IMG/VR virus record: IMGVR_UViG_3300010885_029239
Span: 1 to 20,120 of that record
Length of the DNA stretch: 20,120 bases
Strand: one strand, 5' to 3'
From: a virus
The position numbers and the translations under genes are program-made. The notes under the pieces were generated by a model, which was given only the letters and a program-made list of their open reading frames with translations, ran no database searches and was not told the DNA's origin. Below are positions 4,108 through 20,120 of this stretch, piece by piece. The first letter of the stretch is position 1; every line of letters begins with the position of its first letter.

Positions 4108-4478
4108 TATATACCCTTGGTCAGTGTGCGTTTGGCACGAGGAACTTGTAGCCAATGTCCGCAACTACATAGACTACCCAGCGGGCCTGCTACTGCCATT
4201 GGTCGACCATTGACCAGTATAGTAGGAGCGCCTTCAACAATGACTGCTGAACCGCACATGGGGTTGAATCCCGGCAACTTGGGATTGGTAAAATTACCGT
4301 GTGGACTTACAGGATCTCCCACTTTAGCAACTGGCAAATATTCACAAACAACTGTGGCGGCTGTGGCCATAACGAACCCTGGGCCTGCCGGCGCAAGGGC
4401 ATTGGCACCTTCTACTCCGGTTCCCGGGGTTATGTCAGTTGACGTGGCAACTGTTGCTACTAAATTTGGGCCTGGCAT
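4107..4478 (-). CDS. PAAR-domain spike-tip protein, 123 aa
   Basis: The sequence fits the PAAR family, which caps the central spike of contractile tails and type VI secretion systems. Characteristic segments are AKVGDPVSPHG (residues 51-61), SAVIVEGAPTILVNGRPMA (77-95) and a Cys/His cluster near the end (C104, C106, H108). With H60 and C75 these could bind the tip metal ion. Residues 1-40 are a Gly/Ala/Pro-rich extension. Its stop overlaps the start of the 616-aa virion protein gene. No good Shine-Dalgarno sequence precedes the ATG, which lies just after the stop of the preceding gene. A late-promoter-like TATAAATAC lies about 125 bases upstream. Confidence 0.85.
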   Translation of the reverse strand: MPGPNLVATVATSTDITPGTGVEGANALAPAGPGFVMATAATVVCEYLPVAKVGDPVSPHGNFTNPKLPGFNPMCGSAVIVEGAPTILVNGRPMAVAGPLGSLCSCGHWLQVPRAKRTLTKGI

Positions 4479-4480
4479 TT

Positions 4481-4789
4481 TTACGTAATTATTCCACTCT
4501 TAGCTGGCTGAATACCTGTTGTAGTACGGATATAGTGATTTTCGATATCTTGTATTACAGGACCGTGCATAATAATATGCTCAGATTTCAGCGTTACATT
4601 AGTATTTATATCTGCAGAAATCAGGCTTTGCATCAGACCTAGGCCTTGCTGGCTAGGAATAACAGTACAGGGACGATTTACTTCAAATCCTTCTGCGGTC
4701 TGTTTTACAATTTTGGCAACAATTTCGTCGCCTGTTACAACCTTGAAGCATACAATGTCACCTTCTTGGTAACCTTTATTGATTAACAT
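4481..4789 (-). CDS. Small beta-rich protein, possibly Sm-like fold, 102 aa
   Basis: Residues 7-28 (YQEGDIVCFKVVTGDEIVAK and onward) resemble the first strands of Sm/LSm-type small barrels, where a G-(D/E)-E-I turn joins two strands. This is a weak pattern match, not a firm assignment. The rest is EGFEVNRPCTVIPS, a glycine-rich turn and HIIMHGPVIQDIENHYI. The start has a clear Shine-Dalgarno sequence (AAAGGA). It lies between the glutaredoxin / 102-aa pair and the PAAR gene, and its body contains a late-promoter-like site. Function unknown. Confidence 0.75.
   Translation of the reverse strand: MLINKGYQEGDIVCFKVVTGDEIVAKIVKQTAEGFEVNRPCTVIPSQQGLGLMQSLISADINTNVTLKSEHIIMHGPVIQDIENHYIRTTTGIQPAKSGIIT
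4603..4610 (-). promoter_or_regulatory. T4-type late promoter candidate (TATAAATA) upstream of PAAR
   Basis: TATAAATA on the minus strand (4610-4603) continues as CTAAT, close to the T4 late consensus TATAAATACTATT. It lies inside the small beta-rich gene, about 125 bases before the PAAR start, so it may serve the PAAR and 616-aa virion genes. The location in coding sequence makes chance occurrence possible. Confidence 0.4.
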
Positions 4790-10437: not shown

Positions 10438-10445
10438 TATTTATG
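10438..10445 (-). promoter_or_regulatory. T4-type late promoter candidate (CATAAATA) before the tail spike
   Basis: CATAAATACATTATA on the minus strand overlaps the TAA stop of the exonuclease gene and sits 25 bases before the spike ATG. It fits the NATAAATA late motif described for T4-like phages. Spacing matches the other candidates at 17785 and 11853. Confidence 0.6.
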
Positions 10446-11151
10446 AAGTTTGATAGTACTGTTCTACTCGTTTGTTCCATTGGTTGCAATAGTGTTCAAA
10501 CTCGTGCCCTTCAAGTATGAACTCTTGATAAACAGGGGTGCCAAAAACACCCGGTTCTAGCTCTTTTGGCTGTTGGCACATGAGAATTACACCTTTTTTG
10601 ATATCGGTTCCATGCATGTTATTGTGTGCCTGTGCATAGGCTGCCAACTGTATAAAATAGTCGCCAATGTATTCGCGTTTTTTAAGTTTGTTGGTTTGCT
10701 TGTAATCCATGATGCAGGCTTCGTTGTTGTGTACTCCCACCGAGTCTGTGGTACCAGCATATAACCCGCTATAATAAACAGGAACTTCAACTCCCCACAC
10801 TTCGTTTACTTTTTGAAATCCTTCAAGTATTACTTGTGCGGCCATAAACCAACTTGGTTGTGCAAACGGGTTGCCAGGCAATTCTTTCATTTCGCCGGTT
10901 TTAACATAGTGTTCCAAGTAGCTGTGCATACGTGTTCCGCGATTGGCGGCTTCGGTAGTAATCTGTTGGGCACGTTCTACACCCACAGATTTTTTCCAAC
11001 GATCCAGAGCATCGCGACTTTCTTTGCTTTTGGTTTTGTCTAATATTGTGGTAACACTGGGAACTTTTGACCCGTCTGGCAGACAATAGTGTCTCTTCCC
11101 ATCAATGGTTTCTCTATTGATAGGTTCATAATTGTATTTTTGTATAAGCAT
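10441..11151 (-). CDS. PD-(D/E)XK exonuclease, MGME1/RecB-nuclease-like, 236 aa
   Basis: The motifs of this nuclease fold appear in order. RGTRMHSYLEHY (H76) is the helical G-x-x-x-H motif; YAGTTDSVG supplies D136; IMDYKQTNK supplies D149 and K151; QLAAYAQA (from Q168) is the last helix motif. These would hold one or two Mg ions for DNA cleavage. Length fits the MGME1-like single-strand exonucleases often carried by phages, with roles in replication, recombination or host DNA degradation. The ATG overlaps the iscA stop (TAATG), so it shares a transcript with the Fe-S genes. No Fe-S cysteine cluster of the Cas4/AddB type is visible in it. Confidence 0.88.
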   Translation of the reverse strand: MLIQKYNYEPINRETIDGKRHYCLPDGSKVPSVTTILDKTKSKESRDALDRWKKSVGVERAQQITTEAANRGTRMHSYLEHYVKTGEMKELPGNPFAQPSWFMAAQVILEGFQKVNEVWGVEVPVYYSGLYAGTTDSVGVHNNEACIMDYKQTNKLKKREYIGDYFIQLAAYAQAHNNMHGTDIKKGVILMCQQPKELEPGVFGTPVYQEFILEGHEFEHYCNQWNKRVEQYYQTS

Positions 11152-11477
11152 TATATTCTAAATGATTCGCCACATCCGCAACGATCGCGTTCGTTGGGAT
11201 TTTTAAATTCAAAGCCTTCGTTTAGGCCTTGTCTAACATAATCAACTTCCATGCCGTCTAGATATACATTGTCTTTGACATCTACTAGTACAACAAAATC
11301 TTGTTGGGCATAGTTGATAGTGCCGGGATCACCTGTGTATTCATCAACATACTCTAACACATACGCCATACCCGAACAGCCAGTGGTGCGAACGCCCAGA
11401 CGTATACCAACCCCTCGCCCTCGACGGGTCAAGTTGTCAATGATTTTTTTACTTGCTGTGCTTGTTACGGTAATCAT
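11151..11477 (-). CDS. iscA: A-type iron-sulfur carrier protein (IscA/HesB family)
   Basis: All three conserved cysteines are present: C34 in TTGCSGMAY, and C100 and C102 in the C-terminal CGCGESF. Other hallmarks are ASKKI near the start and YLDGMEVDYVR, followed by GLNEGFEFKNPN. A-type carriers receive clusters from a scaffold such as IscU and pass them to target enzymes. At 108 residues it is of normal length. It overlaps the end of iscU by 29 bases in another frame, with AAGG about 9 bases before its ATG, so the pair is co-translated. ErpA or SufA are alternative names for the same family; the partner IscU favours IscA. Confidence 0.93.
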   Translation of the reverse strand: MITVTSTASKKIIDNLTRRGRGVGIRLGVRTTGCSGMAYVLEYVDEYTGDPGTINYAQQDFVVLVDVKDNVYLDGMEVDYVRQGLNEGFEFKNPNERDRCGCGESFRI

Positions 11478-11826: not shown

Positions 11827-11838
11827 AGGTATGTCCTC

Positions 11839-11853
11839 ACGCTATTGTAGCGT
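11839..11853. repeat. Perfect palindrome over the iscU -10 box
   Basis: ACGCTA, TTG, TAGCGT forms a 6-base inverted repeat with a 3-base centre that covers the -10 element. Because it lies on the promoter, it is more likely an operator or promoter-opening element than a transcript hairpin. It does not match the IscR consensus I know. Confidence 0.55.
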
Positions 11854-11872
11854 ATTTATTCCGATAAGTCAA
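11844..11872 (-). promoter_or_regulatory. Sigma70-type promoter P5 for iscU-iscA, with embedded late-like motif
   Basis: TTGACT (11872-11867), a 17-base spacer and TACAAT (11849-11844) lie on the minus strand in the gap before iscU. The spacer contains AATAAATAC (11860-11852), a late-promoter-like motif placed 27 bases before the ATG, the same spacing seen at other late-like sites. The gene pair may therefore be readable both early and late. Confidence 0.65.
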
Positions 11873-11893: not shown

Positions 11894-12334
11894 CTAGGTG
11901 CCGGCAGCACGTTTAGCCATTTGGCTAACAACTTTACCGGAATCTGTTGGACTACCACCTGCACCTGTACTGCCACCAACTTCAGTGGATTGTACTTGTG
12001 TGTCTGGTGTCACAAAGTAGACGTAATTTACACCAGTCTTTTCGTCTGGTTCAATTTTTTCTACTACATCTTTAAATTGTCCAGACTTAATCGCATCGTT
12101 TAAGTCGGTCCAACGGAAAGAGTTATCGCCACGGTCAGCATTGACCATGGCAACTATCTTGCTTGTTTCTTCTCTTGGAATTGCATGTGTGAATACCAAT
12201 TGACTTTGTACTGTCACAAGAGCATTCATAATATCATTGTAACCGTGGGCATTGGCCTTATCATTATGATTGAGATCAGGTCCTTGTGTAGGAGGTTGAC
12301 CTAAATCTTCACAGATAATTTCAGTGATACGCAT
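11894..12334 (-). CDS. Hypothetical protein, 146 aa, MRITEI-type N-terminus
   Basis: The product starts MRITEIICEDLG and continues with a polar segment, a helical middle (DIMNALVTVQSQLVFTHAIP) and NYVYFVTPDTQVQS. It ends in a low-complexity Gly/Ser/Thr tail before QMAKRAAGT. The N-terminus resembles that of the preceding 235-aa gene (MRLSEM) and the short capsid-targeting peptides of T4 internal proteins. One base separates its ATG from the previous stop, so translation is probably coupled. It ends at TAG before the iscU promoter. No family is recognised. Confidence 0.8.
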   Translation of the reverse strand: MRITEIICEDLGQPPTQGPDLNHNDKANAHGYNDIMNALVTVQSQLVFTHAIPREETSKIVAMVNADRGDNSFRWTDLNDAIKSGQFKDVVEKIEPDEKTGVNYVYFVTPDTQVQSTEVGGSTGAGGSPTDSGKVVSQMAKRAAGT

Positions 12335-12335
12335 A

Positions 12336-13043
12336 TTAACGACGTTCGCGTCCTAGTTCTTGTTCACCGCCAACTGCGGCATCGGTGGCATCAAATCCAT
12401 CAGTTTCAGGAGCGGCACCTAGGTCGCTGTCCATATCGCTTTCAGGAGCACCACCCATGGCATCAGGAGCACCACCCATGGCATCAGGAGCACCACCCAA
12501 GCTCATGTCCGTGGCTGGCGCTTGCTCGCCGCTTAGTACACGAACTGATGTGTCGCTGGTTTCACGTGCCTGACTTAGTGCTGTGTATAGGTCTGTCAGT
12601 GTTGGACTGATAGAACTTTTGAATGCTTCGGCTTGCTCACTGCCAATTTGGTCTCGTATTGTGTCAATCAGTGCAGGAACCTGTTCGTTCTGTACTTTAC
12701 TGATTTTTTCTAGCATGTCTTGAATGCTGTCAACAATGTCCTTGGCAGCTAACACAGCTTCGCTACGACCCATTTCGCTTTCAAACAAACCTTGTTCGGA
12801 ACCCATCCATTTGTCTAGTCCTTCTTTGACCAGCATAAGTTCCATGTACTTGCTATTCTTTTCGGCAGTATGTGCGCCAAAAGATTTTTTAATTTGTGTG
12901 ATATTTTCACCAAGAGCCTTGCTCAAGCGTTGAGCTTTGGCATAAGTCAAATTATCATAGTCAATGGTAAAACCAAAGCGGCTTTCCATAACTTTGTTAA
13001 TTTTTTGTGGTGTTACTTCGGTACGCATTTCAGAAAGTCTCAT
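12336..13043 (-). CDS. Hypothetical protein, 235 aa, helical body and low-complexity acidic tail
   Basis: The product starts MRLSEMRTEVTPQKINKVME and has a long helical body (about 30-165) with many charged residues. I recall closely similar proteins in marine T4-like phages, without an assigned role. From about residue 170 the tail is Ala/Gly/Asp-rich, with GGAPDAM repeated in tandem and then diverging, encoded by a 21-base DNA repeat. This layout fits a core, scaffold or other virion assembly protein, but that is inference. The start lies 6 bases after the previous stop, with GGGA upstream. A weak late-like site (CTAAATAC) is 24 bases before the ATG. Confidence 0.8.
   Translation of the reverse strand: MRLSEMRTEVTPQKINKVMESRFGFTIDYDNLTYAKAQRLSKALGENITQIKKSFGAHTAEKNSKYMELMLVKEGLDKWMGSEQGLFESEMGRSEAVLAAKDIVDSIQDMLEKISKVQNEQVPALIDTIRDQIGSEQAEAFKSSISPTLTDLYTALSQARETSDTSVRVLSGEQAPATDMSLGGAPDAMGGAPDAMGGAPESDMDSDLGAAPETDGFDATDAAVGGEQELGRERR
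12443..12505. repeat. Three tandem 21-base units in coding sequence
   Basis: Two identical units (12443-12463 and 12464-12484) begin CAGGAGCACCACCCATGG and are followed by a third, diverged unit (12485-12505). They encode GGAPDAM-type heptads in the tail of the 235-aa protein. The perfect identity of two units suggests recent slippage. Confidence 0.85.
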
Positions 13044-13049
13044 GATGTA

Positions 13050-13586
13050 TTATTCCCATATCTTGTAGTATTTAGCAGTTCTATGTAATTTTGATATTTT
13101 ATCCCGAGCGAGATTTAGCCTAGATTCAGCTATCTCCAACCTGGGCATTCTGGTATCAACTGTTGTGTAATCTTTGCGCTGTCTTGCTTTTTCTACAGTA
13201 TTACGCAATGACAACATATCTGTGTAACATTTATTTATTAACCGATCACAGGTGAGTATTTCGTCTGCGTTGAACAATTTATTCTTGATAGTGTAAATTG
13301 TGTATAGTATAGCACTGATTTTAGTATCAAATCGATGTACAAAATCGCCACAGGGATTTGTTACATCACATGTTTTGTTTGGGTAAACTTTTAAATTATA
13401 AAGCCCAATACGATACCCATTTTTCACAGGTATACATAACGGGCTTGTGCGTTCTTGCTGAATTTTACCTAGCTCACGGGTAGTCCACTGTTTAATGTAG
13501 TCTGTTGTGGCGTTAGATATTGCTCGTACTTCTTTGGGTTCCGGTTTATGGGATTTTTTTCGTGTATGTGATTTGGCCATTTTCAT
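13050..13586 (-). CDS. Hypothetical protein, 178 aa, basic, helical C-terminal half
   Basis: The product starts MKMAKSHTRKKSHKPEPKEV, a strongly basic leader. A middle region (about 45-90) reads SPLCIPVKNGYRIGLYNLKV and has further cysteines in NKTCDVTNPCGDF. Residues about 90-175 look helical and possibly coiled-coil. It overlaps the end of the 69-aa gene by 41 bases in another frame. The ATG at 13586 and a second one two codons later are equally possible, as neither has a clear Shine-Dalgarno sequence. No family is recognised; DNA contact is a guess from charge only. Confidence 0.78.
   Translation of the reverse strand: MKMAKSHTRKKSHKPEPKEVRAISNATTDYIKQWTTRELGKIQQERTSPLCIPVKNGYRIGLYNLKVYPNKTCDVTNPCGDFVHRFDTKISAILYTIYTIKNKLFNADEILTCDRLINKCYTDMLSLRNTVEKARQRKDYTTVDTRMPRLEIAESRLNLARDKISKLHRTAKYYKIWE
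13068..13075 (-). promoter_or_regulatory. Weak late-promoter-like site (CTAAATAC) before the 235-aa gene
   Basis: CTAAATACTACAAG on the minus strand lies 24 bases before the ATG at 13043, the same spacing as the better candidates. Its flank resembles the site at 17785, CATAAATACTACATT. The first bases deviate from NATAAATA, so this is tentative. Confidence 0.25.
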
Positions 13587-14570: not shown

Positions 14571-14597
14571 AAAAAGGCAACATAAAGTTGCCTTTTT
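14571..14597 (-). terminator. Strong intrinsic terminator, symmetrical
   Basis: AAAAAGGCAAC (14571-14581), a 5-base loop and GTTGCCTTTTT (14587-14597) form a perfect 11-base-pair stem, with T-runs on either strand. On the minus strand it lies 20 bases after the stop of the 134-aa gene and would end its message. It is the clearest terminator in the window and would work in both directions. Confidence 0.92.
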
Positions 14598-19247: not shown

Positions 19248-20120
19248 TTAATTATATATTCTCTTCTTGCGTAACTCAATTTTTAATTTGCTCGACTGCC
19301 GTGCTTCAATGATACTCTTGATCACAAACAGTTTACCAAATTCTTCTACTGCACTTGCTACGTCTTTGTGTCGTTCTTGCCAGACTGGAAAACTTACACT
19401 CCAACCAAACTCTATAGCTTGATCAACTAACCGAGCGCCAGCCCGGTCTGCATCAGGCACCACAATAACTTCACGTGCCAAACTGTCAATGATGTCTGCT
19501 TGAATTTCACTGCATTCATTACTTAATACTGCAACACCATCTATGGCCATGGCATCAAACGGTCCTTCGACTACAATAACAAACTTGGCGTCCTTGTGCT
19601 GTCGGTCTGTGTTGAACACATAGTTGGGCTCGTAGCTGGAATGATATTTGGGTTTAACATCTTCACGAAATGTTCTTGCTGTGTATCCAATAATTTCGTT
19701 GCGCCAAGTAAATGGAATAATCACACGCTGATTCAAATTGTGCTGTCGTTCTGGTGTCCAATAAAACGGATACTTGCCAAAGTCTATTTTGCGAGTTGAT
19801 GCATACAGTACAGCATTGTGATATTCTTGCGGAACATCACAATCGTCGTTCAAGGTGTAGAATGTGTTTAGTGCAAAGAAATCTTGTGCTTGTTCCGGCA
19901 ACGGTCTTGCCTTGAAGTTTATGGGTTCTACCGCTTCCGCTTCAACCAGGGTCTCTGGTGCTACAAGTTCACGTATACGTATGGCATCTATAACTAATCG
20001 TTTGACTGTATTTTCGTCTGCACCTAACCAACTTAGTAACTTACGGAATTTATAATATAGTGGACGACCTGGAACATAACTGGCTTTGAAGTTGCAGTTA
20101 AAACAATGATAAGAAACACC
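19248..20120 (-). CDS. 61: DNA primase, T4 gp61-like, 5' end missing
   Basis: The frame stays open to the right edge, so the true start lies outside the window; 290 residues are visible. Near the edge YHCFNCNFKASYVPG contains a C-x-x-C pair, the likely second half of the zinc finger used to recognise the priming site. The TOPRIM domain follows: FVIVVEGPFDAMAIDGVAVL has the conserved Glu, and VIVVPDADRAGARLV the D-x-D, which bind Mg. The primase would make RNA primers for the lagging strand with the helicase encoded directly after. The internal TTG at 19901 is not its start. Confidence 0.9.
   Translation of the reverse strand, partial: GVSYHCFNCNFKASYVPGRPLYYKFRKLLSWLGADENTVKRLVIDAIRIRELVAPETLVEAEAVEPINFKARPLPEQAQDFFALNTFYTLNDDCDVPQEYHNAVLYASTRKIDFGKYPFYWTPERQHNLNQRVIIPFTWRNEIIGYTARTFREDVKPKYHSSYEPNYVFNTDRQHKDAKFVIVVEGPFDAMAIDGVAVLSNECSEIQADIIDSLAREVIVVPDADRAGARLVDQAIEFGWSVSFPVWQERHKDVASAVEEFGKLFVIKSIIEARQSSKLKIELRKKRIYN

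Follow-up and report, generated by a model that had tools for sequence, protein, structure and literature searches.

Overlapping early and late promoters ('middle' genes) have been proposed for RB49 and S-PM2 in the accessible part of the report (PMC2984593), and in T4 the late promoters of gene e are described, in the portion of the source available, as lying in the 5' strand of a hairpin at the ribosome binding site (PMC3014915). T4-type late promoters are placed by the last A of TATAAATA, which stands at -6, and the late motifs of T4-like phages keep the T at -13 poorly, the form in Aeh1 being CTAAATA (both from the available text of PMC1524935). IscU has already been reported from environmental phage genomes (PMC5332604, as far as the accessible part goes). 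Lists of phage auxiliary genes often leave aside the timing of their expression, and the locus described here, upstream of a phage iscU, bears on that question. Like the RB49 and S-PM2 genes, it combines a sigma70-like early promoter and a T4-type late promoter ahead of the same gene, as read at the sequence level. A literature search that covered few subscription papers returned no report of the present arrangement. We consider a nested early/late promoter, together with a hairpin confined to read-through RNA, to be the best explanation of the locus, with a probability of roughly one half.

Layout of the gap ahead of iscU

The window, by which we mean the whole stretch of DNA analyzed, is the 20,120-base virus record IMGVR_UViG_3300010885_029239, in which 29 of the 31 mechanically called genes lie on the minus strand. 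On that strand, the whole promoter stack falls within the 67-nt gap that separates iscU (11826-11449) from the gene at 12334-11894. The iscU product matches NifU_N (PF01592, E 2.8e-52) over positions 2-123 of 125, its whole length, which places it in the IscU family. It overlaps by 29 nt an iscA-like gene for an A-type carrier (11151-11477; Fe-S_biosyn, PF01521, from Pfam), and next in the operon comes a PD-(D/E)XK nuclease-like gene (10441-11151), the match of which falls just below the Pfam cut-off. The upstream gene (11894-12334) has no Pfam or PHROGs match and provided an independent anchor for relatives; beyond it are a virion structural protein gene (12336-13043; phrog_14154) and, as a motif match, a late-like CTAAATAC (13068-13075), all of these again on the minus strand. 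This last element is a possible source of read-through RNA into iscU, and the scan listed no terminator-like site on the minus strand from 13068-13075 to iscU. Among the best 80 loci, the cellular IscU proteins nearest to that of the window come mostly from betaproteobacteria, including Polynucleobacter and further Burkholderiales, and are 81-87% identical to it. One stretch filed as 'Acinetobacter phage MD-2021a' (L322, CAKLQH020000011.1 21388-29768) carries a bacterial iscR-iscS-iscU-iscA-hscB-hscA-fdx operon beside hupB and ppiD and so looks like host chromosome in a phage collection.

Within the gap, and all on the minus strand, the -35 hexamer TTGACT (11867-11872), of which TTGAC is kept in most isc-head promoters found via the upstream gene, is separated by 17 nt from the -10 hexamer TACAAT (11844-11849) found by a sigma70 promoter scan; with 10 of 12 consensus matches and a spacer within the usual 16-18 nt upstream of a gene, the layout is of sigma70 type. 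The spacer contains the late-promoter-like AATAAATAC (11852-11860), read from the sequence and from relatives. Over the -10 lies a palindrome that reads ACGCTA-CAA-TAGCGT on the coding strand, with 3 nt between its arms: the 5' arm ACGCTA (11848-11853) and the 3' arm TAGCGT (11839-11844) form an inverted repeat with a predicted RNA hairpin of -5.0 kcal/mol, and the 3' arm is directly 5' of the Shine-Dalgarno GAGGA (11834-11838), which is followed after 7 nt by the iscU ATG. Hence the overlap put forward in the preliminary description, of TTGACT-N17-TACAAT, a late-like motif and ACGCTA-TTG-TAGCGT, is present in full, with CAA at the center of the palindrome as read on the minus strand. A plus-strand terminator flagged by the scan at 11839-11853 was set aside, as only a weak T-run follows it, and no known RNA family reaches its gathering score in the window. 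Elsewhere in the window there is a strong intergenic terminator-like hairpin, AAAAAGGCAAC-ATAAA-GTTGCCTTTTT (14571-14597), symmetric enough to act in both directions.

By itself the palindrome of the window is unremarkable and may have arisen by chance (P 0.02-0.09 from shuffling the gap). A 6+3+6 inverted repeat arises in 2% of gap shuffles and occurs 7 times in the window, whereas 6-nt arms with a loop of 3-8 arise in 9% of gap shuffles and number 61 in the window against 33 in shuffles; the exact TTGACY-N17-TAYAAT pattern occurs three times. It is therefore the relatives that decide, and once these are included the stack does go beyond chance, the late motif and the symmetry being kept while spacers and arm letters diverge.

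In the mechanism that we propose, the isc operon (iscU, the iscA-like gene and the nuclease-like gene) would be driven from this gap by a nested early/late promoter. Early in infection the host sigma70 RNA polymerase would read TTGACT/TACAAT, and late in infection a phage T4-type late polymerase would read ATAAATAC inside the sigma70 spacer, so that with this nesting the isc genes would be expressed both early and late. The palindrome over the -10 would act as an RNA hairpin, its 3' arm abutting the Shine-Dalgarno. The late transcript is predicted to start at 11846-11847 in the hairpin loop, by the T4 rule for TATAAATA, and the sigma70 transcript at 11837 in the Shine-Dalgarno, 7 nt past the -10 (both minus strand). 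Because both predicted starts fall inside or after the hairpin, only read-through RNA from the upstream virion genes would carry the whole hairpin, which would mark or damp this RNA for translation or decay and leave locally started RNA free of it. In this scheme we infer the use of the late polymerase, the start points, the read-through itself and the effect of the hairpin.

Symmetry of the palindrome among relatives

Relatives were gathered by IscU (best 80 per search) and, independently, by the upstream gene. What is unexpected is that they preserve the symmetry of the palindrome and not its letters. The arms ACGCTA/TAGCGT are found in the window and in L083, L003 and L085, and CCTTATA/TATAAGG in L087 and L089, the upstream proteins of this group being 74-88% identical to that of the window. 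In L088 (L593), of the same group and with an upstream protein 76-79% identical, the arms are TATTGTAT/ATACAATA, such that close relatives, as in the window and L088, can differ in their arms entirely. Further pairs are CTATAC/GTATAG (L090), GTGTAT/ATACAC (L606), CGTTATA/TATAACG (L620) and TATACTGG/CCAGTATA (L041), and together with two small variants of the window's pair, TGCTA/TAGCA (L045) and GCTAT/ATAGC (L375), there are nine complementary arm pairs in total.

The main test set comprised 201 entries with 70 distinct 33-mers and 30 representatives, of which 21 form class A (the TTGAC/TAGAC class, with the doubtful members L343, L697 and L721 kept in). The mean arm in class A is 4.76, compared with 3.37 (sd 0.30) when the right flanks are permuted, with none of 2000 permutations as long, and the mean hairpin energy is -2.87, compared with -1.27, with none of 300 as low; an earlier, looser set of 24 gave 3/1000 for the arm and 1/300 for the energy. 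The second promoter class has no palindrome: in the TTGTA class (nine representatives, two of them chance coding matches) the mean arm is 2.33 against 3.21, with 1990 of 2000 permutations as long, and in a set of eight representatives 956 of 1000 were as long. Compared with 60 other early promoters of the same records, and uncorrected for kinship, the 24 isc-head promoters have longer arms (4.04 versus 2.42, p 0.001), with arms of at least 4 in 12/24 and 15/60, respectively, and a marginally lower hairpin energy (-3.26 versus -2.57, p 0.05, likewise uncorrected). The symmetry is imperfect in places. Among 26 distinct operon-head cores with AATA(C/T) in place, a table that includes loci found by pattern, Watson-Crick arms of 6, 5, 4, 3 and 2 occur in 3, 5, 9, 8 and 1 cores; arms are at most 3 in 9 of the 26, several of them owing to a C-to-T change, after which a G.U pair remains, as in the common variant ACGTTA...TAGCGT, in which the changed position has only a G.U pair. 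DNA pattern scans, in which the matches listed were mostly unrelated sigma70-like promoters, were left out of the palindrome statistics and of the motif fractions given below. The relatives share ancestry, so these counts are not independent.

Taken together, the comparison shows what looks like selection on inverted symmetry, the palindrome apparently being kept as symmetry, and not as sequence, in many relatives. The conservation that the preliminary description asked of the palindrome thus holds for its symmetry, whereas the arm letters and the loop length change. As a separate observation, what follows the upstream gene in L697 and L721 (L015 type) is another sigma70-like element that lacks the late motif, and L697 still has ATTATC/GATAAT arms over its -10.

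The comparison also places the palindrome beside the Shine-Dalgarno, since the end of the 3' arm lies within -4 to +1 nt of it in 11 of the 12 class A members judged (permuted mean 5.8; 5/1000 as high), two divergent loci, L041 and L090/L613, having no Shine-Dalgarno close to the palindrome. This position bears on a possible operator role of the palindrome, in which a dimeric phage regulator with fast-evolving specificity would shut the early promoter later. Of the 15 class A representatives with arms of at least 4, 9 do have the dyad axis inside the -10 hexamer, where repressors commonly sit, and the quick change of the arms resembles that of repressor immunity types, the specificity of which changes fast. 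Against an operator, the arm end tracks the Shine-Dalgarno, and arms that change together with a loop that varies from 3 to 8 are a poor fit to a fixed operator. A shared operator elsewhere in the same genome was also sought: allowing up to two mismatches, 10 of 11 records contain their site only once and the eleventh (G003) has a second match, and exact 4-nt arms with a free centre recur up to three times per record, about as expected by chance. We regard an operator as unlikely.

The late motif and the early promoter

The preliminary description had also suggested that the stack could allow both early and late reading, and the comparison lends support to this part, a late-like TAAATAC being kept in the sigma70 spacer before iscU. 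Anchoring on IscU gave 205 loci with 141 distinct 70-nt upstream stretches (27 further loci gave no start), of which 46 have a loose sigma70 layout; TAAATA is present in 40 of these 46, and some of the remaining six look like matches to coding sequence. With the upstream gene as anchor, a first set of 66 loci (one too short) gave 49 distinct tails, 28 with a promoter, and TAAATA(C/T)NN stands directly before the -10 in 24 of the 28 distinct promoters; the other four (L588, L591, L606 and L613) have no TAAATA and all retain a palindrome. The second set, the best 80 of 257 loci, gave 45 distinct tails, all 45 with a promoter, and the motif is in the same place in 43. These fractions were obtained without selection for the motif, whereas the columns of a 21-promoter table chosen by AATA(C/T) at a fixed place are conditioned by that choice. 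The conservation of the late motif in the spacer thus shown by comparison marks the isc operon promoter as a putative early/late composite.

To place this in the context of whole records, 11 related phage records (903 kb, 1234 genes called mechanically, piece by piece) were counted. Of the 135 TAAATAC occurrences, 68 are no more than ∼75 nt ahead of a called gene, where 7.2 would be expected. Three of the window's four gene-proximal NTAAATAC sites are ahead of virion or tail-like genes, the fourth being that of iscU, and NTAAATAC is in this respect a TATAAATA-like motif ahead of late genes, as in T4-type late promoters. This group's form, NTAAATA, also agrees with the late motifs of T4-like phages. 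By these measures TAAATAC behaves as a late motif of the phage group. A separate early class, ggTTGACC...TGCTATAAT, is found mostly ahead of small genes in the same records; the left end of the window has a cluster resembling the early class ggTTGACC...TATAAT of the relatives, with three strong sigma70-like promoters, TTGACY-N17-TATAAT or TATACT, at 101-129, 400-428 and 581-609 on the minus strand.

Early and late elements are combined ahead of only 9 of the 1234 genes, once each in 9 of the 11 records and always ahead of iscU, compared with 61 early-only and 159 late-only genes; at the level of sequence, the composite is thus shown to be confined to this place. The iscU gene follows directly in seven records (G001-G005, G013 and G014, with the called ORF of G003 misplaced), after one inserted gene in G011, and ∼1.7 kb downstream in G015. 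No composite was called in two records: in G010 the promoter stands before an inserted gene and iscU but was left unassigned, and in G012 the motif ends in A. Several phages have a small signal-peptide-like gene inserted between promoter and iscU, with the promoter staying at the head. Such small genes (MKK...) lie between the nested promoter and iscU in L002 (5688-5999), L005 (5512-5832), L085, L087 and L088, the L087 and L088 loci ending before iscU; the two that were tested, those of L002 and L005, have no Pfam match. One of the nine composites, that of G013, belongs to the second promoter class, TTGTAAATA...TGTTAYAAT, in which the late motif overlaps the -35, so that the early/late pairing recurs in another register.

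An alternative that we consider improbable is that only the sigma70 promoter works, the spacer TAAATAC being kept for spacer shape or by common descent and the palindrome being a by-product. Sigma70-like promoters are plentiful in the phage group, and L588, L591, L606 and L613 of the first set lack TAAATA and keep the promoter. T4-type late promoters are read by the phage sigma factor gp55 together with gp33 and the clamp. The late sigma factor homologue gp55 (phrog_234) was found in 5 of 29 iscU-phage records, possibly fragments, and in none of the class A records; G013, of the TTGTAAATA class, is the sole composite-promoter record with a gp55 homologue (phrog_234, E 5e-24), and the other four gp55 records have no such promoter directly before iscU. 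Comparing T4 gp55 and the frames of the G013 gp55 locus with those of G001, G002, G005, G006, G010, G011 and the window gave no convincing match to gp55, and one weak match of another frame (E 2e-5). A homologue of the T4 clamp-loader gp44 is present in G001; MotA (PF09114) had no match in nine records, in a search in which the control likewise matched nowhere, so that its absence is not established. Against a sigma70 promoter alone, the first eight spacer positions are only 37% (set 1) and 60% (set 2) identical among the motif-keeping promoters, and the other 61 early promoters lack the motif in this place. The enrichment of the motif ahead of genes genome-wide, virion genes included, and the recurrence of the pairing in the TTGTAAATA class point the same way.

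The same nested layout, TTGAC-N9-TAAATAC-AYTACAAT, precedes a folE-like ORF (GTP cyclohydrolase I) in L238, L277, L279, L280, L290 and L305, with PF01227 tested and confirmed for L277 and L290 only. The leaders of these loci have a hairpin with paired stem changes (GTC/GAC, GAC/GTC, GCC/GGC) and a fixed loop, ATCCAC. They were found by a pattern that demands TAAATA, and their counts are biased accordingly.

Hairpin, regulators and described systems

We examined the predicted folding of the leader in 19 read-through RNAs, in which the hairpin has a pair probability of 0.48-1.0. In only 4 of the 19 was the Shine-Dalgarno predicted to be less exposed when the RNA reads through than when it starts at the late promoter, which does not indicate masking; the median exposures were 0.21 for read-through, 0.14 for late-started and 0.40 for sigma70-started RNA. 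As folding does not hide the Shine-Dalgarno in read-through RNA, the damping step of the proposed mechanism is a guess, via steric hindrance or decay.

The sense and antisense hairpins of class A are equally stable (-2.87 versus -2.65), with no preference for the sense strand, as would be expected if the symmetry acted on DNA, either in a bidirectional promoter with one shared -10 or in a -10 that melts more easily. Bidirectional promoters sharing a -10 are common in E. coli, according to the accessible part of PMC12825309, and the position of the dyad axis in the hexamer in 9 of 15 cases would suit such a role. The opposite-strand -10, however, is no better in the palindromic class A than in class B (4.52 versus 4.56 of 6), the arms are longer than a shared -10 needs, and no plus-strand gene is called nearby, the only two in the window being at 4117-4488 and 19864-20055. 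We consider an action on DNA quite improbable.

Host isc operons are controlled by IscR, and iscU is an Fe-S scaffold gene. The preliminary description raised the possibility of iron or Fe-S sensing by a host factor at the palindrome, with IscR and Fur as candidates for binding. With a matrix built from 63 sites upstream of iscR in bacterial relatives, where IscR-like sites are indeed seen, the gap scores -7.9 against a site median of 29, and 56% of equal window tiles score as high; the match to the Fur box consensus is 11/19 and is reached by 26% of window tiles. With scores this low, the gap having neither an IscR site of the kind upstream of bacterial iscR nor a Fur box, and with none of 80 bacterial isc loci showing the palindrome, sensing of iron or Fe-S status by either regulator is not supported and is very improbable indeed. 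IscR, Fur, a shared operator and a bidirectional promoter are thus all disfavored.

A metabolic gene set that lies beside virion genes and whose own promoter is apparently kept for early and late use suggests that Fe-S assembly is needed throughout infection. We also put forward, tentatively and with the odds somewhat against it, a more general proposal: that the locus represents a cis element selected for inverted symmetry itself and not for sequence, with the early -10 and the late start inside it and its end at the ribosome site, in which the start of the transcript would decide whether the hairpin forms. It would be used once per genome, and if this is true, the Fe-S scaffold gene would have its own early and late supply, kept separate from read-through of the virion genes. 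The compensated arms offer a concrete, testable case of selection on symmetry within a promoter, and they provide a marker with which uncultured phages can be searched for promoters of this kind.

Among the systems described, as far as the available parts of the sources allow comparison, the locus resembles in geometry the leaders of T4 genes e, soc, 49 and I-TevI. As in these, the local starts (here predicted) lie inside the hairpin with the promoter in its 5' strand, only read-through RNA could form it, and the hairpin adjoins the ribosome binding site. Unlike in the gene e group, the arms here, mostly of 4-8 bp, often end next to the Shine-Dalgarno without taking it in, the sigma70 -10 is also in the hairpin, and no masking is predicted; since sequestration of the Shine-Dalgarno and AUG was tested and is not seen (lower exposure in 4 of 19), we do not class the locus as a gene e-type switch. 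The PeSL cassettes of T4-like phages, in the accessible account, similarly have an early promoter and a stem-loop between genes, near a site of small-gene turnover. They are, however, repeated promoter-terminator motifs that are denser in shuffled regions, whereas here there is a single copy per record with no T-run after the hairpin on the coding strand, and the locus is not such a cassette. With the late promoter of Aeh1, CTAAATA, it shares the core NTAAATA; in the available text of PMC1524935 the Aeh1 motif is described before late genes, and its nesting in a sigma70 spacer is a feature of the present locus. The same nesting, within a spacer of 17 nt, distinguishes the locus from the overlapping promoters of RB49 and S-PM2, compared here by their description in the accessible part of the report, as do the occurrence of at most one composite per record and the palindrome of class A.
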